Shown: in pieces, positions 1-19,675 of the stretch
How positions within the stretch are numbered: position 1 is the first letter of the stretch
How the letters are laid out: each line of letters begins with the position of its first letter
Source of the DNA: a virus
Virus record (IMG/VR): IMGVR_UViG_3300021509_000108
Location: 1 to 20,703 of that record
Reading direction: 5' to 3' (one strand)
Length of the DNA stretch: 20,703 bases
The notes under the pieces: generated by a model
Databases searched by the model: none
Told to the model about the DNA's origin: nothing
Seen by the model: the letters and a program-made list of their open reading frames with translations, nothing else
Position numbers and translations under genes: made by a program

Positions 1-54
1 AAGGAGCTAAAGAAGAATAAACGGATGGAGGTGGATGAAGGATATGAGGGTTGA
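1..54 (+). CDS. 3' end of an upstream gene, cut by the window edge (uncertain)
   Basis: Frame 1 is open from the first base to a TGA at 52-54, giving a Lys/Glu-rich tail (KELKKNKRMEVDEGYEG). A second possibility is frame 3, which would end at TAA 18-20. Both would place the stop close to or overlapping the csf2 start, as is usual in this operon. In type IV loci the gene upstream of csf2 is commonly the large subunit csf1 or a small subunit, but nothing here identifies it. Only the existence of an upstream gene is inferred, not its identity. Confidence 0.35.
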   Translation, partial: KELKKNKRMEVDEGYEG

Positions 55-874
55 TATTGTACGAGGATACATAATTGCTCTCTCGCCTATCCATACTGCA
101 GGTGATGAGAAGACAGGTAGCGAGAGTCTCTTGCGGCGTTTGAGTTATGTTATTGATGGTAAGCGAGTGGAGATTCCAGTGCTGAGTGGGAATGCAATTC
201 GTGGAATCTTGAGACGAGAGCTGATGGCAGATATGTTGATGCGAATAGGTTATAATCTGACAAGTGCAAAGATATATCACATGCTATTTTCAGGCGGTAT
301 GCTCGAAACAGTAGATGAAAAGAGTAGTGGTGCAATAGATATAGGATTGAAACGGAAGATTCGACAGACTATCCCTCCGATAGCAGTCTTGGGCTCATCG
401 CTTGGCAACCAAATATTTGAGGGTAAGCTCAAGGTAAACATGGCTCTTCCGATTTGTAAGGAACTTGCTGATTTCCTGCCAGACGATATAGAGATCAAGC
501 CGGAGACGAGCTTCTATGAGTTTCTCGATTGGACGTTTACAACGCGACGAGACGATTTGAGAGAACAGCGAGCAGAGGGTGAACAAGCGACACAGATGAT
601 GGTCAATTTTGAAGTCTTCGCGCCGGGAACACCGTTCTATCACGAGTTTATTTTGAATGATGCATCTGAAGTAGAGCGAGCAGTGCTGGTGAGAATGCTG
701 AATTTATGGCATCAAAAGCCATATATTGGTGGTAAAAGCGCAATAGGGTTAGGTAAATTGAAGCTGAACTATGATTACAATAGAGAAGACGAAAAACTAT
801 ATATAGACTTCCTCAGTAAAAACAGAGACAAGATAACAGCACTATTAAAGGAGTTAGAGGAGAAGTTTAAGTGA
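44..874 (+). CDS. csf2: Type IV CRISPR-like backbone protein Csf2 (Cas7-family RAMP)
   Basis: This is the likely crRNA-binding backbone subunit of a type IV effector complex. The 276-residue protein has an early acceptor-like stretch (SPIHTAGDEKTG), a conserved SGNAIRGILRR block near residues 48-58, the Csf2-like IPPIAVLGSSLGNQIFEGKL segment near 110-129, and a C-terminal glycine-rich loop (GGKSAIGLG, about 229-237) typical of RAMP folds. I chose the ATG at 44 rather than 35 because the Shine-Dalgarno GGAGGTG at 27-33 is 10 nt from the former and only 1 nt from the latter. csf3 follows 1 nt downstream. No csf1, cas6 or DinG gene and no CRISPR array lies in the window. A type III Cas7-like (Csm3/Cmr4) assignment is less likely given the adjacent Csf3-like gene. 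The family call is by recalled motif similarity. Confidence 0.75.
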   Translation: MRVDIVRGYIIALSPIHTAGDEKTGSESLLRRLSYVIDGKRVEIPVLSGNAIRGILRRELMADMLMRIGYNLTSAKIYHMLFSGGMLETVDEKSSGAIDIGLKRKIRQTIPPIAVLGSSLGNQIFEGKLKVNMALPICKELADFLPDDIEIKPETSFYEFLDWTFTTRRDDLREQRAEGEQATQMMVNFEVFAPGTPFYHEFILNDASEVERAVLVRMLNLWHQKPYIGGKSAIGLGKLKLNYDYNREDEKLYIDFLSKNRDKITALLKELEEKFK

Positions 875-875
875 A

Positions 876-1583
876 ATGCAACAAATATTCAATAAGCTTA
901 AACAATACGAGCCACCACAAGATTTTGAACCGTTGAAAGTCATATTTAGGATGACCTCACCGATCATGTTAGGTCATCCTTTTATTCATTTCGATAGCTT
1001 GATTCTGCATCTCCTCTATCGTGATTTGCTCAGTGATGACTATTATTGCCTACCATCAAAAGACCCGATAGACTTCTCGCAATATGTCAAAGCGCCAATA
1101 AAGCAAACCGAAGATGTCTATCATACCTCGGTTTCGTTTTTTGATACAGATACGAAAATCGCAACAACCATATATAAACGGTTCTGTACCGAATATCTTG
1201 AATTGCTGAACACTAAGAAACGAAAGATAGCGAGGGGTAGCGGGTTTTATCGTGATTACATGATGCGTATGATTTATATACCAGCAAAAACAGTCTATTT
1301 CTTTGTAAATGCTAATAAGTCAGAAATATCTCGTTTATTGAAGTCAGTGGTTTATCTCGGTAAGAAGACAGCATACGGATTTGGTAGGGTGAAGAGCATT
1401 CATATAGAGAGGACAGATAATGATTATAGCATAATAAAAGATAGCAAAGCGATGCGTCCTATTCCAATGCGAATGTTAAGGGGCGCTGAAGTAAAGGCAA
1501 TGCTGGCATATAAGCCGCCATACTGGGATAAGCGTAATGTTGAATTATGTGCCTTTCCTGACTCGAATGTGGAAGTGCTATGA
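876..1583 (+). CDS. csf3: Type IV CRISPR-like protein Csf3 (Cas5-family RAMP)
   Basis: Csf3 normally caps the 5' handle end of the crRNA in type IV complexes. The 235-residue product starts after a short leader with a RAMP beta-strand (LKVIFRMTSP, about 20-29), followed by the Csf3-like LGHPFIHFDSLILHLL block (32-47). It then has a basic segment (KKRKIARGSGFYRDY, about 114-128) and the glycine-rich loop GKKTAYGFGRV (162-172). It lies 1 nt after csf2, with GAGGAGA at 856-862 as its ribosome site, and its TGA overlaps the next ATG. The csf2-csf3 pairing is what makes type IV more likely than a lone RAMP. No Cas6-like processing gene is seen, as in type IV-B. Assignment rests on recalled motifs and gene order. 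Confidence 0.7.
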   Translation: MQQIFNKLKQYEPPQDFEPLKVIFRMTSPIMLGHPFIHFDSLILHLLYRDLLSDDYYCLPSKDPIDFSQYVKAPIKQTEDVYHTSVSFFDTDTKIATTIYKRFCTEYLELLNTKKRKIARGSGFYRDYMMRMIYIPAKTVYFFVNANKSEISRLLKSVVYLGKKTAYGFGRVKSIHIERTDNDYSIIKDSKAMRPIPMRMLRGAEVKAMLAYKPPYWDKRNVELCAFPDSNVEVL

Positions 1584-5804: not shown

Positions 5805-5982
5805 ACGCGACACTTTCTTTGGAGCGACTTAATCTTTTGGAAGAATCCTTAAGAAAATCTGATTTAGACATGGATGTTGAGAAATGCCTTCTTGACGACC
5901 TATCTTGGGCTTTCTGGTCGCTCTTGGAAGTTGAGAAGCCCTAAATGGTCAATTTGATATTATAATAGTTACAGATGAGTGA
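5758..5982 (+). pseudogene. Frameshifted first copy of a five-member tandem paralogue family
   Basis: Homology to the four following genes can be read across three segments. ATG 5758 opens a frame beginning MTEV, as in copy MTEIVIFER. The match then moves to the next frame for LSLERLNLLEESLRK and on to LLEVEK, which ends at TAA 5942-5944. It returns to the first frame for ALNGQFDIIIVTDE, which ends at TGA 5980-5982 and overlaps the next gene's ATG by 8 nt. The two shifts are opposite in sign (+1 then -1) and restore the original frame. The aligned core (ALxGxFDIxxV) is the family's most conserved part. I read it as decayed; programmed frameshifting twice in so short a gene is unlikely, and assembly indels are possible. 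Confidence 0.65.
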
Positions 5983-6211
5983 GGTCTTCATCTTCGAGCG
6001 AGTCGGTGACACCTGGCGTTCCTCCAAACTCTCACTTGAGAAGAGAATGCTTTTGAGCGAACTTGAGGATTTAGAGTTAAGATTAGAACTTGATCCCGAA
6101 CCTCCGGTCAAGGCAATATTACTCAAGAACCTCTATGAAATCCGTTGTGATGTTCGACTCATTGATCAGGCCCTGATAGGAAGTTTTGATATAGTAGTGA
6201 TAGCGGAATGA
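5975..6211 (+). CDS. Tandem paralogue 1, 78-residue protein of unknown function
   Basis: This small helical protein begins MSEVFIFERVGDTW, has a charged amphipathic middle (SLEKRMLLSELEDLELRL), and ends with the family signature IRCDVRLIDQALIGSFDIVV. It shares this layout with the genes at 6208, 6437 and 6675 and with the broken copy at 5758. The start overlaps the previous copy's TGA by 8 nt and the stop overlaps the next ATG as ATGA, so the copies are translationally coupled. No known domain, cysteine motif or membrane segment is visible. Function is unknown. Confidence 0.8.
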   Translation: MSEVFIFERVGDTWRSSKLSLEKRMLLSELEDLELRLELDPEPPVKAILLKNLYEIRCDVRLIDQALIGSFDIVVIAE

Positions 6212-6444
6212 CCGAAATCGTTATCTTCGAACGGAAAAACACGGAACCTACAGAACTTTCTTTCAAGAGAAAACTTCTCGAGGCTAAGCTTAAGAAAATA
6301 AATCAAGAACTTAAGAAGGAAGATATCCTTCCTACTGTTAGGGAGAAGCTGCTCAATGATATGTACTTAATTCGTCGAGACATCCAACTTATTGACTATG
6401 CTTTAACTGGAAATTTCAATATTGTAATCATAGCAGATGGCTGA
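6208..6444 (+). CDS. Tandem paralogue 2, 78-residue protein of unknown function
   Basis: It begins MTEIVIFERKNTEPTELSF, has a Lys-rich middle (KLLEAKLKKINQELKKED), and ends with the family block IRRDIQLIDYALTGNFNIVI. The middle is much more basic than in copy 1, while the C-terminal block is retained. That pattern suggests the end is the functional or structural core and the middle is under diversifying change. It overlaps both neighbours (4 nt upstream, 8 nt downstream). Function is unknown. Confidence 0.8.
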   Translation: MTEIVIFERKNTEPTELSFKRKLLEAKLKKINQELKKEDILPTVREKLLNDMYLIRRDIQLIDYALTGNFNIVIIADG

Positions 6445-6682
6445 AGTAGTAGTTTACTTTCGGCTTGGAGAGAAATGGCTCATTAGCGATCTTGCTTCTG
6501 AACGCGAAAGTCTCCTTCGTACAATTGAGGACTGGGAATTTAGCTTTGAAGCAGAACCTTCTCAAGCTATCAAAAATGAAATTCTTCATGAACTCCATAA
6601 GACTTACTGTGAACTTCGTCAGATAGACCAAGCACTCACAGGTAAATTCGACTTGTTGATTGTAGACAATCCTGATGAGTGA
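6437..6682 (+). CDS. Tandem paralogue 3, 81-residue protein of unknown function
   Basis: It begins MAEVVVYFRLGEKWLISDL, continues with an acidic, aromatic middle (ERESLLRTIEDWEFSFEAEP), and ends CELRQIDQALTGKFDLLIV. Unlike copy 2 the middle is acidic. Both boundaries overlap neighbouring copies by 8 nt, the same spacing as between copies 0 and 1. That is consistent with duplication of a whole unit including its start-stop overlap. Function is unknown. Confidence 0.8.
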   Translation: MAEVVVYFRLGEKWLISDLASERESLLRTIEDWEFSFEAEPSQAIKNEILHELHKTYCELRQIDQALTGKFDLLIVDNPDE

Positions 6683-6921
6683 AGTTATCGTTCTCCTCAA
6701 AAACCTTGAAGGAATGGAATTTAAACGTCTTTCTTATGAGAGAGAAGAGAAGATTCATGATCTCGAGCAGACTGAAACAAGTTATAGAAGAAGATCCAGA
6801 GTTCGAGCCAGAATGGTTTAAAGACTACTATGATATTCGAAAGATGATTCAGCTTATTGACCAAGCGTTAAAGGGAAAGTTTAATCTTATTGTAGTTGCA
6901 AAATCTGACCAGAATATATGA
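6675..6921 (+). pseudogene. Tandem paralogue 4, frameshifted near the middle
   Basis: The family-like N-terminus starts at ATG 6675 (MSEVIVLLKNLEG...LSYEREEKIHDLEQ), with the usual 8-nt overlap with copy 3. That frame runs on to an early stop after about 48 codons. The conserved second half (LKQVIEEDPEFEPEWFKDYY, then IQLIDQALKGKFNLIVV) is one frame forward, ending at TGA 6919-6921. Dropping one base at about 6768 joins EQ to LKQVIEED and gives a full-length family member. An ORF starting at ATG 6679 in the second frame exists, but its N-terminus does not resemble the family, so it is either a new N-terminus or an artefact. The options are a +1 programmed shift, a real lesion or a sequencing indel. 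Confidence 0.65.
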
Positions 6922-7361: not shown

Positions 7362-7865
7362 CTATCTTCTTAACAAAATTTTTCGCCATCTGATCTGCTT
7401 CGCTCTTCTCTCCATTTCTACGATAGCAGGTCGCCAGTAAGGTCGCTCTCGAATGCCTCTTCTTTGTATCTTCTTTGCAACTGCCCACGCTGCCTGCCAG
7501 CCAAGGGGTGTAGCTCTCAATCTTCGTCTTCTCGTTTGCAAACTCAACTGCGATGCACCTCTCATGACGCCCTTCCTGATTACCCACTCCCGGATGACAT
7601 CAACAGGTGGAAGTCGTCCGGGAGGTCTACCCCACTCGACTGCCGGGGCATGCCTTGCTGTACTCACGACTTTTCGGGTCAAGGGATCAGGCCTCTGAAT
7701 TCTAAAGGATCGAAGAAGAATGCCCCGGTCTACCGCTCGCTGCTTGAGAATGTTCGATTGGACTTTCTGAACAAAGTCCCGTGCAAGGTTCTCTATGATT
7801 TGAGAGATATCTTTTTGAATCTGACTATGGATGCTTAATCCTCCAGACGTTGTAAGTTTGATCAT
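7362..7865 (-). CDS. HK97-gp10-like neck/tail-completion protein
   Basis: The 167-residue basic protein matches the gp10-like pattern. It has an N-terminal helix, AVDRGILLRSFRIQ (the V-x-T/R-G-x-L-x-x-S segment), then a strand ending HAPAVEWGRPPGRLPPVDVI and EWVIRKG. It closes with AWAVAKKIQRRGIRERPYWRPAI, the usual ...G...PF.RPA ending. Members sit in the neck and join the tail to the connector. The ATG at 7865 overlaps the previous gene's TGA as ATGA, with AGGAAG just upstream; a TTG at 7886 is possible but less likely. It is oddly placed: such genes usually sit between the connector and tail terminator genes, but here it is the last late gene, after the radical SAM and Cys-array genes. Confidence 0.65.
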   Translation of the reverse strand: MIKLTTSGGLSIHSQIQKDISQIIENLARDFVQKVQSNILKQRAVDRGILLRSFRIQRPDPLTRKVVSTARHAPAVEWGRPPGRLPPVDVIREWVIRKGVMRGASQLSLQTRRRRLRATPLGWQAAWAVAKKIQRRGIRERPYWRPAIVEMERRAKQIRWRKILLRR

Positions 7866-8341
7866 CTTCCTACCGACCTTCCACAATCACGTCCACAAAA
7901 CTGACCAACAGTTTCACAAGCGGTTTGGCAGGTCAACTGACAGGTAGATTGACAAGCTTGCTGACAATAACTCTGACAAGAAGATTCACAAGATGACTGG
8001 CAACTGGACTCACAGCTGGTCTGACATTGAGTTTCGCAGGTGTCCGGGTCGGAAGGAATGAAGAGTTCTTCGCTATCTTCGTATTCGCCATCGTCACAAC
8101 GACCAAGCCAGAGTTTGATCGTATAGGTTTGCCCACCATAGTCAATGAGTCGTCCAGCAACATAGCACTCTTGAGCATATTCATCATCAGAAGGCATGTG
8201 CCCGCACTGATTTTTAGGTTTTCCTCCGTGATATACGCAATTGTAATAACGTTCCCCTGCATTACAGTTCTTAACCCATATCTTGTAATAGGCGTTATGA
8301 TTTTCCCATCGATCAAAATCAAGCGCGGCTATGTATGCCAT
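7862..8341 (-). CDS. Cysteine-array protein, probable radical SAM substrate (RiPP-like)
   Basis: The 159-residue protein has two parts. Residues 1-100 look globular, aromatic- and Asp-rich (CNAGERYYNCVYHGGKPKNQ), with cysteines at 26, 35, 46, 59 and 82. Residues 102-142 are an uninterrupted array of 11 cysteines spaced exactly every four residues, with units of the form C-[EQ]-[STQ]-[SAT]. After the array come Cys149 and Cys153 and a Gly/Arg tail. No signal peptide is visible. A strong GGAGGT lies 8 nt before the ATG, and the start overlaps the radical SAM gene's end by 23 nt, so the two are coupled. I infer that the array is modified by that enzyme, for example with thioether crosslinks. Alternatives are metal binding or a disulfide/beta-spike virion protein. 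Confidence 0.8.
   Translation of the reverse strand: MAYIAALDFDRWENHNAYYKIWVKNCNAGERYYNCVYHGGKPKNQCGHMPSDDEYAQECYVAGRLIDYGGQTYTIKLWLGRCDDGEYEDSEELFIPSDPDTCETQCQTSCESSCQSSCESSCQSYCQQACQSTCQLTCQTACETVGQFCGRDCGRSVGR
7916..8038 (-). repeat. C-x3-C array: about ten tandem 12-bp coding units
   Basis: This segment encodes residues 102-142 of the Cys-array protein. Each unit is four codons beginning with a Cys codon followed mostly by Gln or Glu, then Ser/Thr, then Ser/Ala/Thr. Codon choice varies between units while the cysteine spacing never slips. That argues for selection on the protein pattern rather than a recent microsatellite expansion. Confidence 0.9.
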
Positions 8342-9305
8342 TTCTTACTACCTCCGTCAATAGTCTCTTGAGTTTACATTCGATTGGAATAGGTTCAATC
8401 ATATTACCCATGGCCAGATACGAATTCACATAGCATATCCCACAGATCGCAGTTGAGCATTGCTGACATTCTTTCCGTAGCGTTCCATACTGTCTGAACT
8501 CTCTTCGTTGTTCTTCATTAATTCCATTCCAAATATCACCAAGTGAGATTCCAATCTGCTGCCAACCTGAGACGTGATAGCATGGATAGAGCTTACCATC
8601 GTAGTTGATTGTAACTGAACCTCGACCTGCACCACATGCGATGTTCTCCACTCGCCATCCCTTTTCTATTCGTTGCTGAATCTTCCAAAAGGGAAAGATG
8701 TGTGGAAAGTCTCGATAGACCTCCTGGAGCTGTTCTTTCAAAATAAGTAAGTCTTGTTCTTGAAGACTGTAATCTGAAACAACATCGAAGTTCAACGCTA
8801 TTGAGTCTGAAAACTTTGCAGTATGAACGACTGCATCATATAGAAGCGAACATTCTGTGCTGGGGACAGTTATAGCAATTGAGAAAGGAATTTCTGATGA
8901 CTTCAATTTCTCTATATTCCGTTCAACCCTTGACTTTGTAGGTTCATTTGTCTTGGTTCGCCTGAATTTGTCATGCCAAATAGAATCATAGGAGACTAAT
9001 ACACTGATTTGATATTTCCATAGTAAATCGAGCGTCTCTTGACTAAGATTCACAAGATTCGTAGTAATGCCCTGAACCCGGATGTGGTTATCAAAGAATG
9101 CCTCTACAACGTTTCGAAACAATTCTTCGTTAAGGATCGGTTCCTGCTGAGGAATCTCGATTGATTGAATGCCTTCACGATGACAGAAGTCTACGATTTC
9201 GGGCAGTAGTGCAAGGTCAAGTTCAGCAGGTTCATTGTGTCGAAGGTAGCAGTACCGACAAGCCAAGTTGCAGGAGTTATTTATCCTCAAGAACCCTACT
9301 GTCAT
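8319..9305 (-). CDS. Radical SAM / SPASM-domain peptide or protein maturase
   Basis: The 328-residue enzyme has the radical SAM cluster motif CX3CX2C (C12, C16, C19 in SCNLACRYCYL). The usual GGE motif is replaced by QQEP (about 53-56). A C-terminal SPASM domain follows: C224 in ACGAGRGS, the G-x4-C pair G237/C242, then C280, C283, C288, C291 and C310, enough for two auxiliary clusters. SPASM enzymes commonly install thioether or C-C crosslinks in ribosomal peptides, or act as anaerobic sulfatase-type maturases. The next gene, overlapping by 23 nt, encodes the Cys-array protein, so that is the likely substrate. No Shine-Dalgarno precedes the ATG, and an AAATAT box lies 23-28 nt upstream, which is compatible with a leaderless transcript and an internal promoter. 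Confidence 0.92.
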   Translation of the reverse strand: MTVGFLRINNSCNLACRYCYLRHNEPAELDLALLPEIVDFCHREGIQSIEIPQQEPILNEELFRNVVEAFFDNHIRVQGITTNLVNLSQETLDLLWKYQISVLVSYDSIWHDKFRRTKTNEPTKSRVERNIEKLKSSEIPFSIAITVPSTECSLLYDAVVHTAKFSDSIALNFDVVSDYSLQEQDLLILKEQLQEVYRDFPHIFPFWKIQQRIEKGWRVENIACGAGRGSVTINYDGKLYPCYHVSGWQQIGISLGDIWNGINEEQRREFRQYGTLRKECQQCSTAICGICYVNSYLAMGNMIEPIPIECKLKRLLTEVVRNGIHSRA

Positions 9306-9417: not shown

Positions 9418-9675
9418 TTAGAATCTCCGCAGGATTGCCTTCAAGATATTTTCTACAACGGCTATGACACCTACATAGGCAGCGAGCTGTGCCATTACAT
9501 TGCTCTCAGTTATCTCCAGTCCAGAGGCATACATTATTGCTCCGACACCCATGCCTACGATGACAGTTGCAGCGAACTTCGTTACTTCAAAACTCTCGAA
9601 ATTGGAAGACTTCAGATAACCACTTGCTGCGAACACAGCCGCTGCTATGATTGCAATAAGGATTGTCATATCCAT
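9418..9675 (-). CDS. Small membrane protein with about three TM segments, possible holin
   Basis: The 85-residue product is dominated by hydrophobic stretches at about 3-19 (MTILIAIIAAAVFAASGYL), about 33-50 (AATVIVGMGVGAIMYASG) and about 62-78 (AQLAAYVGVIAVVENILKA), with a basic C-terminus (LRRF). The size, topology and place after the tail genes fit a holin-like lysis protein, but nothing diagnostic is present and no endolysin gene lies next to it. A very strong AGGAGGTGGT at 9681-9690 sits 5 nt before the ATG, suggesting high expression. The 112-bp gap downstream carries the promoter region of the radical SAM gene and a near-palindrome (ACTCGAAATTTGAGT) at about 9398-9413. Confidence 0.7.
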   Translation of the reverse strand: MDMTILIAIIAAAVFAASGYLKSSNFESFEVTKFAATVIVGMGVGAIMYASGLEITESNVMAQLAAYVGVIAVVENILKAILRRF

Positions 9676-9702: not shown

Positions 9703-10161
9703 TCAATAAATGTAGGGAAGAACTGATTGTTTAATGAAGCATTCCTCCACTAACTTTGTAACTGCGATCATTAATGCCATTACTTTCTTGGTCTGTTCTG
9801 GACTGAGATGCCAGGATTCGCATAGACTCTTGACGGAAGTCTCAAACTGCCAGCCCTGGCGGTCTCGCTGTCTGAGTTCCCTAAGAATATCATTGACATC
9901 ATCAACGAGTTCTTCTGGTTTGACGATTTCTGGCTCCAAGGCGTCTTCAAGCATCTTCTGCATAGTCACCAGCGAAACCCGGTCGGAAATCCATAAGGTG
10001 AATTCTTGTTCCTTGAACTTAAGGTTGAACTTGACTGTCTTCTGGCCTGTTTCTTCATTTTCTACGATTCCCCAGATAACTGAGAAGTCTTTAACCTCTT
10101 TACTACTTGAACCATCCCAGACGGTACACTCAACAGGTTTGTGCTTATCTTCTGAATCCAT
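9703..10161 (-). CDS. Hypothetical protein, 152 residues
   Basis: I recognise no family. The N-terminal ~75 residues look like beta-strands (VWDGSSSKEVKDFSVIWGIV, KTVKFNLKFKEQEFTLWI). The rest is helical and charged (DDVNDILRELRQRDRQGW, SPEQTKKVMALMIAVTKLVE). The start is ATG 10161, with GAGAGGAG a few bases upstream; the in-frame TTG at 10176 is rejected. It lies between the tail hub and the holin-like gene and is probably a late accessory gene. The upstream gap carries two copies of the late intergenic repeat and a tiny ORF. Confidence 0.7.
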   Translation of the reverse strand: MDSEDKHKPVECTVWDGSSSKEVKDFSVIWGIVENEETGQKTVKFNLKFKEQEFTLWISDRVSLVTMQKMLEDALEPEIVKPEELVDDVNDILRELRQRDRQGWQFETSVKSLCESWHLSPEQTKKVMALMIAVTKLVEECFIKQSVLPYIY

Positions 10162-10188
10162 TCTTACTCCTCTCAATGATTTTGTGCT

Positions 10189-10261: not shown

Positions 10262-10312
10262 ATTGCGTCTATGGTCAAATATATGCGTCTCACGCGAAAT
10301 TTAACGGGACTC
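10262..10312 (+). promoter_or_regulatory. Late intergenic repeat, copy A (probable promoter/operator)
   Basis: It begins ATTGCGTCTATGGTCAAAT and runs into the last codons of the hub gene. It contains the dyad GCGT-CTC-ACGC (10285-10295) flanked by AAAT (10277-10280) and ATTT (10299-10302). Read on the minus strand it holds the TATA-like CATATATTTG about 27 nt before the tiny ORF start. It aligns over ~50 bp with both copies upstream of purM. Confidence 0.55.
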
Positions 10313-12508
10313 TACAAAGCATTTGACCCAGGCATCGAATTGGAACCTGCCAAGATTACCAGAACTGAGACCAACTTCGATTTCATTGTTACCGGGCTCG
10401 AAGTAGTCCGCGAGGTTACCTTCCTTAGAAAAGATGTTAGACCAGACTTCGTGACCATTGACCTTAAGATAAAGGTTATTGCTCGACCCCTCATATATTC
10501 CATGCTGAAGTTCATGAGTATGCGATTTAATGCTATGAGTATGCGAGGGAAGCATAACGGAATGAGTGTGTTCGTATTCAACTTCTCGGAAGCCAAGAAT
10601 ACCAAGACATTGCGCTGCTCCACTTGCCGCAACTTCGATCCTGAGCCTATGACCAGCAACAGTACTGTCCGTAATAGGCGTAAATTTAAAGGCTCGCGCT
10701 CGACCCCACTTTATAACGGTTTCTCTTCCCATTTCCTCTATCAATTCATCTGTCTGGTCGTCCTTTAACCTGACATATTTCAGACCAAATCCCTCTCTAT
10801 AACTGAAATTCAACACTAAGGCAACAACTCTTGTCCGCTTATGCCTTTTGGGATCATATTCAGCAGGTGCATCTAATTTGAAGATTGTTCCTGCCGGAGA
10901 TACCTCAGTTGTCATGAACAATGACATGTCATCATTCCTGCAGAATGTCGAGACTATCTCAGAAGTGGTATGCGAGCCAGCAGAAGTTCCCGAAACACCA
11001 CCACCTGCTTCAGTCGTTGTCTGACCACCTGCCTTTGTAACTTTCTCATAACTACGCCAGGGAAGGGACTTGAGACTGACCCTGACGAGGTTGATTGCGA
11101 CTGCATCTTCAGGGATTCTGAGTGTAAACCTGAAGGGTTTGGACGAATCAATTGACTCGACTATGGGACCAACCTGATAGAGGTTCGTAGCACCTTGTCC
11201 ATAAGCTTGTTCAAGTGTAACTTCTCGTTCAATGGACTTAATCTCTTCAAGCAGTGGAGAATAGACCTGACCTGCCTTGATTGTTGTTCGAGGATAAGGC
11301 TTCTCAGAATATTTGATTTCAGCAATAATCCAATCCTCTCCATCATAAGTGAGTTTGAACCCAGGCAGCCCGTTGTAATCGTCCATGTAAGCAGTCTCAA
11401 GAGTAAGGGACTTGCTGGGTTGGGCATGACTCTCAATAACTCGATTGGCATACCTGTCGAGACAGTTCTGATCAATAATGCTCTTATCCTTTATGACCCT
11501 TGACTGCAATCCAAATTGCTTAATTGACGAAGTTGCATGAGGGTATGACACCGAGAAGGCAGGTCGAACAATGATACCCTTCTCGTGTCGATATGCTGAG
11601 AGTCCTGGCGACTTACCTCTTTCTGTCACATGAAGCTTGTAGAGAGAATCGGTAGAGGTTCGATTATCAAAATGTAGTAGCTCCCGACCAATCCAAATAT
11701 CTCCAGATAAAGGGAAGCTTGCCGGTTTGGTAATCTTGATAGTAAACGGAGGAGTTGCAGACTCCGAAATCTCAGTCTTCAATACCGCCCGTTGCTCGCC
11801 AGCACTATGATCGTCATAGCTCCAGAGCTGGTTGATTCCATCACCACGACCAAGTACCTTGGCAGCATTGATTATCGAACGGGAGCGGGAGGTACTGACC
11901 CCTCGAACCTTGGAGTCGGAAACTGAAGCTGACGAGATCGAACCCGGTACAAAGATTTTAACCCTCTCGTGTAGATAATATCCATTTTGCCAATCCTCGA
12001 AAGAAAGATACCAGCTCGCACCAATTAGAGATAGGAGTTTTGCAAGGAGTTTGAGAATCGAGTCCCGTGATATTCTGAAGGAGACCTTCTCATCGAGGAT
12101 CGAATTGGAAGTATCGAAAAGAAGAGAAGTATCGGTAACCTCTTTGTACTGGTTCTTCAAAGTCTGAATAACTGTCCGAGCCGTGACGTTAGAGAAGACC
12201 TGTTCCTCACCTGCATCCTGATCAAGTTTGATTAAGGCATCATAACCTGTGAACTCTAATTGTTGAGAGAACTTGTTATAGTTTTTCTTCACGATCCTGC
12301 CTTGGATGGGCACATAGTTAGGTTCGGATAACGAGGAACTCTTCAATGTAAATAATGACCAGAAGTCAATTGAATCAGCTTCATCCTTTGAGACTCCAAC
12401 CAGAGTACCCTTCACCAACGTAAGCTGACCTTGCTTCCGAGTTATCTCGAGACCTACTACTCGATTACGATAACTCCCATTTCTATCAATCCACAAGTCC
12501 CATTTCAT
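10301..12508 (-). CDS. Tail hub / baseplate protein with His-Thr-His triplets
   Basis: This 735-residue protein sits after the tape measure gene, where siphovirus-type tail tip hub proteins are found. The first ~400 residues look like the hub fold: MKWDLWIDRNGSYRNRVVGL, then GRIVKKNYNKFSQQLEFTGY, and an IIAEIKYSEKPYPRTTIKAG strand region. A Gly/Ser/Thr-rich linker lies around 500-520, followed by a beta-rich C-terminal half. At 647-649, 656-658 and 663-665 there are three HTH triplets plus His669. Such HxH motifs bind metal along trimeric tail fibres and needle tips. The protein may therefore combine hub and fibre/needle roles. The start overlaps the previous gene as ATGA, and the stop lies inside repeat copy A. 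Specific family unproven. Confidence 0.7.
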   Translation of the reverse strand: MKWDLWIDRNGSYRNRVVGLEITRKQGQLTLVKGTLVGVSKDEADSIDFWSLFTLKSSSLSEPNYVPIQGRIVKKNYNKFSQQLEFTGYDALIKLDQDAGEEQVFSNVTARTVIQTLKNQYKEVTDTSLLFDTSNSILDEKVSFRISRDSILKLLAKLLSLIGASWYLSFEDWQNGYYLHERVKIFVPGSISSASVSDSKVRGVSTSRSRSIINAAKVLGRGDGINQLWSYDDHSAGEQRAVLKTEISESATPPFTIKITKPASFPLSGDIWIGRELLHFDNRTSTDSLYKLHVTERGKSPGLSAYRHEKGIIVRPAFSVSYPHATSSIKQFGLQSRVIKDKSIIDQNCLDRYANRVIESHAQPSKSLTLETAYMDDYNGLPGFKLTYDGEDWIIAEIKYSEKPYPRTTIKAGQVYSPLLEEIKSIEREVTLEQAYGQGATNLYQVGPIVESIDSSKPFRFTLRIPEDAVAINLVRVSLKSLPWRSYEKVTKAGGQTTTEAGGGVSGTSAGSHTTSEIVSTFCRNDDMSLFMTTEVSPAGTIFKLDAPAEYDPKRHKRTRVVALVLNFSYREGFGLKYVRLKDDQTDELIEEMGRETVIKWGRARAFKFTPITDSTVAGHRLRIEVAASGAAQCLGILGFREVEYEHTHSVMLPSHTHSIKSHTHELQHGIYEGSSNNLYLKVNGHEVWSNIFSKEGNLADYFEPGNNEIEVGLSSGNLGRFQFDAWVKCFVESR

Positions 12509-12870
12509 GTTCCGTAATATTGGTTAAGTGTAAGAGTGAATTTCCATTGAGCTTCACCTTCGATATAAGTGACTATACAACTCTCGACACAGGTTTTGAG
12601 TACGCGATTTCCTTCATGGGGAAACGTAACTTCAATGCCTCCTTCGCTACCATCCCATGAGGCAAGCTTGGAGAGAAAGGTATTCTTTGCGACATGATCT
12701 GTCCAGAATCCTTCCATAACGATCTTAGAGGTTATCTGCTTGAGATCGAGCATAATTGTTTCAGCACCAGGAAGAGGGGAGACTATTGGCTGCTTACTCA
12801 CTCGTTCTGCAATTTTCTCAACTTTGAGAGTAACTTTATCACTCCCAACCCCTATTTCTATTTCAGGCAT
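12505..12870 (-). CDS. Small tail/baseplate protein, 121 residues
   Basis: It is translationally coupled to the tape measure gene (start overlaps its TAA) and to the hub gene (ATGA). It is beta-rich: an N-terminal EIEIGVGSDKVTLKVEKIAE, a middle KIVMEGFWTDHVAKNTFLSK, and a C-terminal strand EGEAQWKFTLTLNQYYGT. The position between tape measure and hub is that of a distal tail or small baseplate protein. I cannot name the family. The role is inferred from position and compact beta content. Confidence 0.7.
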   Translation of the reverse strand: MPEIEIGVGSDKVTLKVEKIAERVSKQPIVSPLPGAETIMLDLKQITSKIVMEGFWTDHVAKNTFLSKLASWDGSEGGIEVTFPHEGNRVLKTCVESCIVTYIEGEAQWKFTLTLNQYYGT

Positions 12871-14534
12871 TAGAGAATCGCCTCCATTCTCCTCTGGAGT
12901 AAACTCGCAATCTCGTCCGCTAATTCCTCAACAGACTTACCTTCTTCTTTGACTTCTACATTCACAGTTATCGAAGGTGAGAATTGAACAACCTTCGATT
13001 CTGGAGAAGGGACACCAACATGAACTTTGGGAGTTTCAAACCCACGAGCAGCGAAACCCTGACTGAGCGTACGAGCAAAAATCGCAGGAATTTCCGAGAT
13101 TCTGGGAGAGAAGCTTATTAAGCCTGCTGCCCAATCCCGAAGCTTGTTAGCTACATCCGAGAGCCCTGATCTAATAGAGTTCCAAATTCTGCTACCAATG
13201 TTTGCCAGACCTCTCACGAGCTGATCAACCAAATACCGTCCTGCCTCAAGGAAGGCTGAAGCAAACGATCGAATTCGTTCGACTACCGAGGACCCAAATT
13301 CTCTCACTCGCTCGACAAACGCGTTGATCTTATCACTTGCGATTCTAACCCATTCTCCAAGTCGACCGCCGGTAAGATCGTTAAGTGTATCGTAAGCGCC
13401 TTGTGTGAGATTCAAAATAACTTGTGACCAGTCCTGGAGTGCTCCGGGAATATCACCTCGTAAAAGTTTATCCCAGGCGCTTTTCATTAGGGGGAGTTGG
13501 TCATTTGTAATCCTAACCATCGAAGAAAGACCCTCAACGAACTTCGACTTTAGAAGACCCACTCCGCGATCAACAACTGCAGTCAAACCCGGAAAATGCT
13601 CTTGGAAGAATCCATGAATTCTCTCGAGCATTGTTCTATGAACAGCAACAAAAGCCCGCAACCCATTTGACGCTCGCTCAGGCAAGGAACCGAAAAAGTA
13701 TGCAATTGTGTCTTTCGCTGAACTTGCCCAATTCGCAATAGCAGAGCCTGCTGTCGAAAGAGCACCTCTGATCTTACCGGGCAATTCAGAAAAGAACTGA
13801 GGCAAACCCGCAAAGAATTCGATTATCTTTATTCCTAAATCCTTCAAGAATCCTGCTACTGCCAGAATCCCCGCCTTAATTACAGCCCCAACCCGATTGA
13901 GAATATCCCGCATGCCAAACCAATTGAACTTCCAAGCAAGAAAGAGAAAACTGACAACTGCGATGATAGCAAGGATTGCCCAACCGATGGGTCCCGCACT
14001 AATAAGAGCGGCAATGCCTCCGACTGCGAGCCTTGTGATAGCCAGTATCCCTATCCAGACAAATTTGAAGATACCAAGTAGTGGCATGAGAATGAAACCG
14101 AATACCTTTAGGATGGTAATGACGGTCACCAATGCTCCAAGAAACAGAAGAATTGCACCAATGGCACCCCTGACTGGTGCCGGCAGGCTTCTCCACCACT
14201 TATAGAGCTTCATCAACCACTCGACAATCTTCAGAAAGAAGGGTATCAATGGAGCTAACGCCGTATCAAGGAAGGCAGTAAAAATACTACCAAGTCCTCG
14301 AATGAATGCAGATAGGACGGTGCTACGAAGGATTATTTCCCGAACAGAATATCCTACTGCTGCAGCCCACGCTAACCAGCTTACCTTCTGGACAAGAAGG
14401 TTTCGTTCAGTGTCGCGGGTTGATCGTCTTGATGTCCTGCCTAAATCCTCGATAGAAGACCCGACCTTTCTTAGTCCTCCAAGCGCTTGTGAGATTCTGG
14501 CAGAAATGTTATATATGAGTGAATATTCAACCAT
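12870..14534 (-). CDS. Tape measure protein
   Basis: The 554-residue protein sets tail length and is ejected with the DNA. The N-terminus has helical, Ser/Arg-rich sequence (SARISQALGGLRKVGSSIED). Hydrophobic segments lie at about 50-75 and 120-200 (ILLFLGALVTVITILKVFGF, AGPIGWAILAIIAVVSFLFL). A long amphipathic helical region follows to about 470, then a beta-like tail (SKVVQFSPSITVNVEVK) and a terminal helix. That arrangement and its place between the tail chaperone and baseplate genes are typical. It is short for the family; at about 1.5 angstrom per residue it would imply a tail well under 100 nm, an inference from the family rule. Confidence 0.9.
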   Translation of the reverse strand: MVEYSLIYNISARISQALGGLRKVGSSIEDLGRTSRRSTRDTERNLLVQKVSWLAWAAAVGYSVREIILRSTVLSAFIRGLGSIFTAFLDTALAPLIPFFLKIVEWLMKLYKWWRSLPAPVRGAIGAILLFLGALVTVITILKVFGFILMPLLGIFKFVWIGILAITRLAVGGIAALISAGPIGWAILAIIAVVSFLFLAWKFNWFGMRDILNRVGAVIKAGILAVAGFLKDLGIKIIEFFAGLPQFFSELPGKIRGALSTAGSAIANWASSAKDTIAYFFGSLPERASNGLRAFVAVHRTMLERIHGFFQEHFPGLTAVVDRGVGLLKSKFVEGLSSMVRITNDQLPLMKSAWDKLLRGDIPGALQDWSQVILNLTQGAYDTLNDLTGGRLGEWVRIASDKINAFVERVREFGSSVVERIRSFASAFLEAGRYLVDQLVRGLANIGSRIWNSIRSGLSDVANKLRDWAAGLISFSPRISEIPAIFARTLSQGFAARGFETPKVHVGVPSPESKVVQFSPSITVNVEVKEEGKSVEELADEIASLLQRRMEAIL

Positions 14535-17454: not shown

Positions 17455-18477
17455 TCATCTTGTTATAAACTCTTCAGTTAAATATACCCGTCTTCCGCCT
17501 CCTTTGATTACATTGCCAATATTATACGCATTGACCTTGTGTTTCCCTGCAATCTCAATTATTCTTTCCTCTTCTGTTTTAGAAGCTATGATGCAGAACC
17601 CTATACCCATATTAAATATCCGGAACATTTCCTCAATTGGTACTTTACCGAGTCGCTGCAGCAACTTAAAGATAGGAGGCGGTTCAGGAAAATTCGAAAT
17701 TTTGAAACTAACATCTGCTTTTATTCTTCCCAAATTCAAAAGACCTCCACCCGTAATGTGTATTAAGGCCTTTACATCGAGTCCAGACCTGATCATCTCC
17801 ATTATTTCAGGGACGTAAATATGAGTTGGCTTCAGAAGCTCTTCTCCTATAGATCCATCGAACTCTTCAAAGTGCTCATCTATACTAATATGGTTTCTTT
17901 CGAGTATTCGCCGTGCTAATGTGAATCCATTACTATGAATTCCATTACTTTGAAGACCGATAATAACATCCCCGTCTTGAACCGTACTCCCAACGATTAA
18001 TTTATCAAGGGAAACTTTCCCAACTGCCATTCCCGCCAGATCGAACTCATAACCCGCTCGCTCGCCCGTAATGACATTTTCCATTATAGCTGTCTCTCCA
18101 CCAGAAATACTTATCCGTGCGATCTCTGCACCCTCCCTCAACCCCTTACCGATTTCCCGGACCAACAGAGGATTAGAACGAGAAACCACTATATAGTCAA
18201 GCATAGTTATAGGTTCAGCTCCTACACAGAGAAGATCATTGACATTCATTGCGACGCAGTCAATACCAATAGTGTCATACTTATTTAGCATCTGTGCGAC
18301 TAACACCTTTGTTCCCACTCCGTCAGCAGATAAGGCTATTCCCATACCCTCCCCAACATCAATTACATTTGCGAAATATCCTATATCAAGCCCGACCTTG
18401 TCATATAGAAATGTCTTACGAATATAAGGAACAAGTTCTGTTAACATTTCCTCCTCTATTTGTTCCAATAATTTCAT
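17455..18477 (-). CDS. purM: Phosphoribosylformylglycinamidine cyclo-ligase (AIR synthetase)
   Basis: It converts FGAM to AIR with ATP in de novo purine synthesis. All family marks are present over 340 residues: SADGVGTK (50-57), TIGIDCVAMNVND (69-81), GAEPITMLDY (86-95), SISGGETA (123-130), QSNGIHSNGFTLAR, HITGGGLLNLGRI and FRIFNMGIGFCII. It appears full length and intact. It heads the transcription unit for connector and tail genes, only 10 nt before the connector gene, with two repeat copies (18486-18614) upstream. No Shine-Dalgarno is evident, and a CCAAAATTTAG box lies 22-32 nt upstream, compatible with a leaderless message. Purine genes occur in some phages as auxiliary metabolic genes; lodging in a virion operon is unusual. 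Confidence 0.96.
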   Translation of the reverse strand: MKLLEQIEEEMLTELVPYIRKTFLYDKVGLDIGYFANVIDVGEGMGIALSADGVGTKVLVAQMLNKYDTIGIDCVAMNVNDLLCVGAEPITMLDYIVVSRSNPLLVREIGKGLREGAEIARISISGGETAIMENVITGERAGYEFDLAGMAVGKVSLDKLIVGSTVQDGDVIIGLQSNGIHSNGFTLARRILERNHISIDEHFEEFDGSIGEELLKPTHIYVPEIMEMIRSGLDVKALIHITGGGLLNLGRIKADVSFKISNFPEPPPIFKLLQRLGKVPIEEMFRIFNMGIGFCIIASKTEEERIIEIAGKHKVNAYNIGNVIKGGGRRVYLTEEFITR

Positions 18478-18614: not shown

Positions 18615-19675
18615 CCTTCATCGAACTCTAAGACTTGATTACCTAACTTCGCACGTCGAGCAAAGTACCAGAGTTTGATGGCTTTAGCCAAAAGAACAAC
18701 CTTACTTATAACCTCTTCCCGCTGACTTGTTTCCAAACTCTGTCCAGACTCAACTGACTTAAGTAGTGCCAGCGCCAATACATCATTATCAAATAAAGCA
18801 CCGACATCAGTTGCTGATTTTGAGACTAATCCCTCTTTCTGTACATTGCCTAATTCAAGAAGCGAACTTATATCGAGTCTTCGTAGAGCTACATTAAGTA
18901 AACGATCATCGAAACCCAATCCTACATCAAGTCCTAAGATCGAAGACTGCGTCAAGGCAGAGTCTTTAAGAGTGTTTACATCAGAAGACCGAAGCCAAGA
19001 CGCTACCAGACTTGCGTCAAAACCTGATCCTATTTCGGACCTTGAGAACGCGGATTGCACCAAAGCGAAGTCCCTTAGGACGTCGAAATCAATGACTGAT
19101 AGAGAGGTATCCAATTTCTTTAGTGATAACCCCTTACCAACATCTATTGATTGAAGTTGAGCTGCTGTTGAGCTTATCTCCTTAAGAAAACCTGCATCGC
19201 TACCTAACTTGGAAGTAGAGCTTAACAGAAGACTTGACTCTAAATACTCGCTAATGTCCAACGATGCTAGTGTAGCGAAGAGACTCGAAACTTCATGAGA
19301 TGAAAGGAAATCTGAAGAGTGAAGTATTGAACTTAATACCAGCGATTCAGTTCCAATAGTTGTATCCACTTGGGAGAATGTAGCGTTATACCCGAATGTT
19401 TCAAGTCCCGAACCTATCTCCGCTCGTTGGTTAGAAGCCATTAGAGTTATCATGTCCAGCAGAAATCCGATCTCAGATTCAGAGATAAGAGAGGAAAGAA
19501 GCTCAACCTCTGCAAAGCTACCAACGTCGGAAGAAGAAACCTCGACTGCGGAAGGCTCTGGATTCTCGTGAAATACAAATGTAGAGCCCAATCCCCATTT
19601 GACAACAACGAGGTCTCCGCTGGAGTTAAAGAGCTGGACACTTCCTAATCCCCACGAGACACTATTTACCGCCAT
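18605..19675 (-). CDS. Repeat protein built of 18-residue units, unknown virion or surface protein
   Basis: The 356-residue protein is rich in Ser, Leu and acidic residues, with no cysteine. After an N-terminal part holding two WGLGS motifs (8-12, 27-31), an [DE]-[IV]-G type motif recurs at residues 50, 68, 86, (104), 122, 140, (160), 178, 196, 214, 232, 250 and 268, an 18-residue period. Typical units are SEIGSGFDASLVASWLRS and LDVGLGFDDRLLNVALRR. The C-terminus turns helical and basic (VVLLAKAIKLWYFARRAKLG), then acidic. No signal peptide is seen. It overlaps the beta-helix gene by 10 nt. A solenoid fold and a fibre or adhesive role are inferred. I recognise no family. Confidence 0.75.
   Translation of the reverse strand: MAVNSVSWGLGSVQLFNSSGDLVVVKWGLGSTFVFHENPEPSAVEVSSSDVGSFAEVELLSSLISESEIGFLLDMITLMASNQRAEIGSGLETFGYNATFSQVDTTIGTESLVLSSILHSSDFLSSHEVSSLFATLASLDISEYLESSLLLSSTSKLGSDAGFLKEISSTAAQLQSIDVGKGLSLKKLDTSLSVIDFDVLRDFALVQSAFSRSEIGSGFDASLVASWLRSSDVNTLKDSALTQSSILGLDVGLGFDDRLLNVALRRLDISSLLELGNVQKEGLVSKSATDVGALFDNDVLALALLKSVESGQSLETSQREEVISKVVLLAKAIKLWYFARRAKLGNQVLEFDEGDL
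18821..19528 (-). repeat. About 13 diverged 54-bp coding repeats (18 residues each)
   Basis: The region encodes residues 50-285 of the repeat protein. The unit consensus is roughly [S/L]-[D/E]-[IV]-G-x-[GFL]-[LF]-x4-L-x2-S-x3. Spacing is exactly 18 residues in most steps, with one step of 20 in the middle and the last step longer. The DNA is well diverged between units. Confidence 0.75.

Follow-up and report, generated by a model that had tools for sequence, protein, structure and literature searches.

A viral radical SAM/SPASM enzyme gene that overlaps the gene of an 11-cysteine array protein, its probable substrate, and related pairs in tailed viruses

The window, by which we mean the whole stretch of DNA analysed here, is a 20.7-kb IMG/VR virus record (IMGVR_UViG_3300021509_000108). 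On one strand it carries genes for a head-tail adaptor, a tail tube protein, a tape measure protein, a baseplate-like protein, a radical SAM enzyme, a cysteine array protein and a Neck1-like protein, and on the opposite strand genes for an anaerobic class III RNR, an RNase H and a dCTP deaminase-like protein. The anaerobic class III RNR makes it probable that the host is an anaerobe, in whose cytoplasm disulphides would be hard to form. A preliminary description of the sequence had located the enzyme and array genes at 7862-9305, overlapping by 23 nt, in a virion/lysis region with no protease or transporter gene nearby. Both open reading frames were indeed found at these positions (Table 1), the same-strand neighbours are of the tail tube, tape measure, baseplate-like and HK97-gp10/Neck1-like kinds, with a holin-like 85-aa ORF recognised by eye, and neither a protease nor a transporter gene was seen among the ORFs of the window. 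The sequence shared by the two genes is ATGGCATACATAGCCGCGCTTGA.

Table 1. Features of the enzyme and array locus and of its neighbourhood in the window
Feature	Position	Strand	Basis
HK97-gp10/Neck1-like tail completion protein, downstream neighbour	7362..7886	-	family match; 83% identical in L128, same place
Array protein gene, 159 aa, ATG start	7862..8341	-	ORF list; 69% identical syntenic homologue in L128
Tail C-terminal to the array (QFCGRDCGR..., C149, C153)	7865..7915	-	
C-[E/Q]-x-x array, residues 102-142, 11 Cys, exact period 4	7916..8038	-	
N-terminal part of array protein, residues 1-101, five conserved Cys, no family match	8039..8341	-	69% identical to L128
Radical SAM/SPASM enzyme gene, 328 aa, no N-terminal RRE	8319..9305	-	
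Overlap of enzyme gene 3' end and array gene 5' end, 23 nt	8319..8341	-	equal length in L128
Ribosome-binding-like GGAGGT, 8 nt before the array gene ATG, within the enzyme gene	8350..8355	-	sequence
SPASM domain, seven Cys (C224-C310)	8376..8636	-	PF13186 and TIGR04085 above cut-off
CX3CX2C radical SAM cluster motif (C12, C16, C19)	9249..9272	-	sequence; invariant in 25 array-linked enzymes
ORF of 85 aa with two stretches that look hydrophobic by eye (holin-like)	9418..9675	-	no family match
Baseplate/tail-tip-like protein, upstream, same operon	10301..12508	-	phrog_4311 2e-26, weak YQBQ
Tape measure protein	12870..14534	-	phrog_1272 5e-18 and others

The enzyme belongs to the radical SAM/SPASM superfamily by its CX3CX2C motif and its seven-cysteine SPASM domain, both of which the preliminary description had noted. 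The SPASM cysteines are C224, C242, C280, C283, C288, C291 and C310 (CX12GX4C ... CX2CX4CX2C ... C), and the Pfam models Radical_SAM (PF04055, 3e-12) and SPASM (PF13186, 1.7e-6) are both matched above their cut-offs. An RRE is absent from the enzyme: 11 residues precede the first cluster cysteine, and the alignment with SkfB starts at residue 113 of the latter.

In the array protein, the 11 array cysteines occupy residues 102, 106 and so forth up to 142, with a period of exactly four, so that the coordinates and the spacing given in the preliminary description are right; the longest period-4 cysteine run in 20,000 shuffles of the protein was six. What that description overlooked is the key feature of the repeat, namely the Glu or Gln that directly follows each cysteine. 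Glu or Gln is found at +1 and +5 of all 11 array cysteines of the window and at -3 of ten of them. The other cysteines of the protein are C149 and C153 past the array and those at positions 26, 35, 46, 59 and 82 in the N-terminal part. This N-terminal part looks like a folded domain; its ~100 residues had no match in Pfam, PHROG, NCBIfam or the PDB, and AlphaFold gave no confident model of the array protein (mean pLDDT 39), which leaves the globular domain of the preliminary description a putative one.

One close relative was found, the 63.9-kb viral record IMGVR_UViG_3300024423_000001 (L128). Its gene order is that of the window, with a homologue of window 9703-10176, the enzyme, the array protein and the Neck1-like protein, and the identities are 72% for the enzyme, 69% for the array protein and 83% for the Neck1-like protein. 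The 23-nt overlap is kept, and so are all 11 array cysteines, several of them through a synonymous change of the cysteine codon. The residue after cysteine is always E or Q in both viruses (8 of 10 identical within the array, the rest Q to E), and the x positions 2 and 3 of the repeat are 40-50% identical. Along both arrays (7916-8038 in the window) this residue alternates E, Q, E, Q, strictly so over ten units in L128, and this may reflect a super-repeat of eight residues. Neither the enzyme nor the array of the window by itself retrieved relatives from viral contigs in back-translated searches, and searches from the two-sequence alignments gave the L128 contig as the sole relative there; tblastn of the array against phages, with a filter that masks low complexity, returned no match.

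The window also contains several genes of interest in their own right. Two adjoining genes at 35-1583 (+) match type IV CRISPR Cas7/Csf2 (1e-78) and Cas5/Csf3 (6.5e-58), and to judge from these matches the edge of the record carries part of a type IV effector. A PurM-like AIR synthase gene lies within the tail operon (17455-18477, -). For none of these three genes was a counterpart found in L128, nor was a homologue of the 85-aa ORF found at the corresponding place there. Four tandem paralogues of ~80 aa at 5975-6921 (+) are multiplied and diverged in L128 too. At 19666-20703 (-) a beta-helix protein related to disaggregatase (PF08480, 1.3e-24) is encoded, which may be a tail depolymerase, and its disaggregatase likeness hints at an archaeal host.

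The relation between such arrays and radical SAM enzymes was followed across viruses. Viral contigs were scanned for C-x3-C arrays by a DNA pattern, genuine coding arrays were kept, and the whole record was checked for PF04055. In a first set, and among the matches listed, PF04055 was found in 27 of 33 genuine-array records and in none of 40 control records in which the pattern match was of low complexity or out of frame; the controls, here and in the second set below, were matched by pattern and not by size. The set was partly hand-picked with the enzyme matches in view: four of its members failed the mechanical filter, and eleven records that passed it had been omitted; two of these eleven carry the enzyme, and in most the match is a shadow frame or a simple repeat. 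A purely mechanical count gives the enzyme in 26 of 40 records, again among the matches listed. For a second set, a new pattern was scanned completely and the classification was fixed before looking for the enzyme. Here a radical SAM gene accompanies 7 of 8 strict arrays, or 9 of 10 with two borderline loci, as against 2 of 40 controls (Fisher 4e-6 and 2e-7, respectively). The wide occurrence of arrays without a radical SAM neighbour, which the preliminary description had named as speaking against its reading, was thus looked for in both sets and not encountered.

Most enzymes of the first set lie less than 5 kb from the array. Of 43 array records, 7 lack PF04055; in three of them the record ends ~1.2 kb or less from the array, and in one more this distance is 4.6 kb; the enzyme-less records L199, L104 and L416 are not easily put down to record ends. 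A pattern scan of genome contigs yielded at least four real arrays among the 117 stretches listed, all four adjoining a radical SAM gene on contigs from Clostridia/Firmicutes; where the surroundings were inspected, the neighbours were of phage type. For TIGR04115, 399 genomes from a single bacterial phylum gave no match, but no positive control gave one either, so this negative is uninformative. In a tree, some deep joins of which are unsure, several deep clades of array-linked enzymes are seen, at ~20% identity, and a single inherited neighbourhood therefore does not account for the pairing; the enzymes of the window and L128 form a separate clade (100/100). As arrays and enzymes, the latter divergent, are found together in one unrelated virus after another, we consider it very probable that the array is the substrate of the adjoining enzyme, and we regard this pairing as strongly supported.

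Some of these loci are more elaborate. In L236 (2482-9241) two tandem radical SAM genes adjoin the array protein gene and are preceded by a reverse transcriptase gene and that of a protein which, by eye, resembles the target of a diversity-generating retroelement; as read by eye, the array and a diversified tail protein share one locus there. Two or three different radical SAM genes stand beside one array in L218 (1000-3485) and in L161, suggesting several modifications of one array. The Firmicutes genomes L364 and L365, to which the array records L350 and L349 belong, have the tail-array locus and in addition their own SCIFF peptide and maturase.

As to the class of the enzyme, the PapB model is matched by all 25 array-linked enzymes that were compared, TIGR03942 by 24, the SCIFF maturase and QhpD models by 21 each and TIGR04115 by 19. 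A profile of these 25 enzymes matches the solved structure 5wgg, which we take to be CteB, the SCIFF maturase, at 9e-80 (window enzyme alone, 1.4e-7). The predicted model of the window enzyme (pLDDT 90) likewise has 5wgg as its best solved fold in Foldseek (3e-19), with sulfatase maturases next. The preliminary description had linked the enzyme through its SPASM class to thioether maturation, and with PapB as best model and CteB as nearest solved fold this assignment is supported as regards the class of the enzyme: the data point to a peptide-modifying SPASM class closest to the thioether-forming maturases, although the enzyme scores below all curated maturase equivalog cut-offs. The resemblance to ranthipeptide systems includes the homology of the enzyme to PapB, the SCIFF maturase and QhpD; a leader and an RRE are lacking, and ~100 conserved residues precede the array instead of a short leader. 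With moderate confidence, we think that the enzyme is a ranthipeptide-type maturase whose action turns the array into a ladder of thioether cross-links, carried by a tail-associated protein.

An enzyme of this class could also alter the array without making thioethers, by oxidation, dehydrogenation or epimerisation in an anSME-like or EpeE-like manner, and would then leave the cysteine repeat uncross-linked. The anaerobic sulfatase maturase, which oxidises and does not cross-link, has a fold close to that of the window enzyme, sulfatase maturases being the second-best fold group, and nearly all of the array-linked enzymes match TIGR03942. However, sulfatase maturation targets a CxPxR-type motif, which is absent here, and both the best model and the best structure are those of thioether maturases, PapB and CteB. 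We therefore consider a modification of this kind unlikely.

The repeat itself bears on the chemistry. Over 845 units, the consensus in the viral arrays is C-[E/Q]-[T/S/A]-[S/G/T/A]. Glu or Gln follows the cysteine in 80% of the units, a value partly imposed by the search pattern; at +1 of the last cysteine of a run it is 77%, and after cysteines outside the pattern runs 60%, against a background of 10%. The preference is not universal, as arrays of the TIGR04115 type mostly have G/S/T/A after cysteine. The core of SCIFF, CQTSCQSACKTSC, has the same register as the viral C-[E/Q]-x-x unit. A ring of the [E/Q]-x-x-C type, as in NxxcA (Asn20-Cys23), was considered as definition of the repeat and is disfavoured, Glu or Gln at -3 of the first cysteine being found in 11% as against 10% background. 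The link in SCIFF has been reported as Cys32-Thr37 (+5) or Cys32-Thr34 (+2), in NxxcA cysteine is joined to Asn and in QhpD to Glu C-gamma (PMC8326336). PapB takes Cys-Xn-Asp substrates in which n = 0-6, and Glu as well (PMC9413430), and related maturases join cysteine to Glu C-gamma, Asp or Asn C-beta, or Thr (PMC9413430, PMC8326336). By analogy, the acceptor in the viral arrays is likely Glu or Gln, at +1 or at +5, and thioethers are the presumable product of the window pair.

The array might instead be a strip of unmodified thiols that binds metal or Fe-S clusters or buffers redox state, with the enzyme acting elsewhere or on nearby residues. Regularly spaced cysteines can bind metals, but the repeated pairing of array and enzyme across unrelated enzymes and array-bearing proteins would then be hard to explain. 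A conserved Glu or Gln after cysteine, moreover, is not known to be a signature of metal sites. A thiol strip thus appears rather improbable.

A place on the tail for the putative ladder is suggested by where the arrays of other viruses are found. They sit on P2-gpI-like (L223, and L164, L213 and L214 by phrog_48 tail matches), tail-fibre-J-like (L226), tail-tip (L350), YQBQ-like (L168) and F5/8-C-bearing (L075) proteins. A tail-family match was obtained for 9 of 20 array proteins tested elsewhere, whereas the N-terminal part of the window protein matches nothing. The array-bearing tail proteins of other viruses measure about 300 to 1967 aa, the viral arrays, that of the window included, number from 11 to more than 60 cysteines, and some arrays adjoin lysis genes as read by eye. 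From the neighbouring genes and these tail-fused arrays we infer a virion location for the array protein of the window. The preliminary description had preferred neither of a structural spike and an injected or secreted effector; as related arrays extend proteins of recognisable tail families, the spike is now favoured. The product could still be a diffusible ribosomal peptide or a secreted or injected effector, such as a bacteriocin, a signal or a superinfection exclusion factor, and not a virion part at all. Consistent with this, the array protein of the window is a small one without a tail-family match, encoded near the end of the late operon, and the known relatives SCIFF and freyrasin are free peptides. 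Against it, the window has no protease, transporter or leader, and the arrays of relatives lie inside large tail proteins, so that we give an effector little probability. That the array is mere low-complexity drift or a shadow reading frame without function can practically be dismissed, since many pattern matches in the collections are of this kind but their records rarely have radical SAM genes (0/40, 2/40), and at the window locus such a reading is refuted by the conservation of overlap, synteny and, through synonymous codon changes, every array cysteine in L128.

In the preliminary description no described system of this form was known, an idea that is not supported. TIGR04114, TIGR04117 and TIGR04115 already pair curated CXXX-repeat proteins with a radical SAM maturase, and some viral enzymes are members: the enzymes of L177 and L057 pass the TIGR04115 cut-off, that of L075 is just under it, and the arrays of L177 and L058 pass TIGR04114. 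The window pair lies outside these models (enzyme 40.9 of 350 bits for TIGR04115; array without TIGR04114 match and at E 0.95 for TIGR04117), and it differs in having E/Q after cysteine, where arrays of the TIGR04115 type mostly have G/S/T/A. SCIFF (TIGR03973) with its maturase CteB/ScfB (TIGR03974) shares the C-Q-x-x register and provides the nearest enzyme by sequence and fold. However, SCIFF is a chromosomal leader peptide of ~45 aa with an RRE-bearing maturase, and the viral form has 11 to more than 60 cysteines on a larger protein, with an enzyme that lacks the RRE; the window enzyme reaches 57.8 of 425 bits for TIGR03974, far below the cut-off, and the array protein gave no TIGR03973 match. 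The freyrasin system PapA/PapB (NF047865) includes the best family model for the window enzyme (8e-29; 100.8 of 340 bits for the equivalog, below the cut-off) and a cysteine multi-ring array with acidic acceptors, but PapA has CX3D/E, a leader and an RRE (PMC9413430).

The substrate of QhpD (TIGR03906) is a cellular enzyme subunit without a repeat array. As in the proposed viral system, the protein in which QhpD makes its radical SAM thioethers, Cys-Glu and Cys-Asp, is no exported peptide (PMC8326336), and the window enzyme matches its model at E 2e-17, although the model has ~90 extra N-terminal positions. Among viruses, the phage radical SAM proteins of phrog_1802 and Campylobacter phage CP220 are related to the window enzyme (phrog_1802, 1e-25); no array was found beside the CP220 gene in the 12.6 kb examined. 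In the open-access papers searched, no description was found of a viral tail system of this kind. It is the leaderless, virus-borne form with arrays on virion tail proteins, recurring across many viruses, that appears to be new by this search.

In the scheme that we infer for the chemistry, the joined residues, the virion location and the function, the overlapping genes would yield the enzyme together with its array protein substrate. During late expression in the cytoplasm of the anaerobic host, 5'-deoxyadenosyl radicals from SAM, together with the SPASM clusters, would enable the enzyme to bond the sulphurs of the array cysteines to side-chain carbons inside the array; the Glu/Gln conserved after each cysteine would most likely provide these carbons. 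Residues 102-147 would thereby become a rigid, redox-stable and protease-resistant ladder. The N-terminal part would anchor the protein to the tail or baseplate, and the ladder could serve as a stiff tip or as an element that contacts the receptor or the envelope. For us it stands in even balance whether, more generally, tailed viruses of various kinds that infect anaerobes have time and again recruited ranthipeptide-type enzymes to build such ladders into tail-tip proteins, so that radical chemistry would supply a structural or receptor-binding part of the virion, with the window encoding a compact archetype.

Radical SAM peptide maturation has so far been mainly a matter of natural-product chemistry on small leader-bearing peptides. 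The findings suggest enzymatic cross-linking as a means by which some viruses harden or arm their tails. If this is true, radical SAM chemistry makes virion parts, as a covalent post-translational modification of the virion, and provides a substitute for disulphides that works in a reducing anaerobic cytoplasm. Such viruses would then supply leaderless enzymes for the multi-step processing of long substrates, and the arrays would be a likely substrate for many of the unexplained radical SAM genes in viral genomes.
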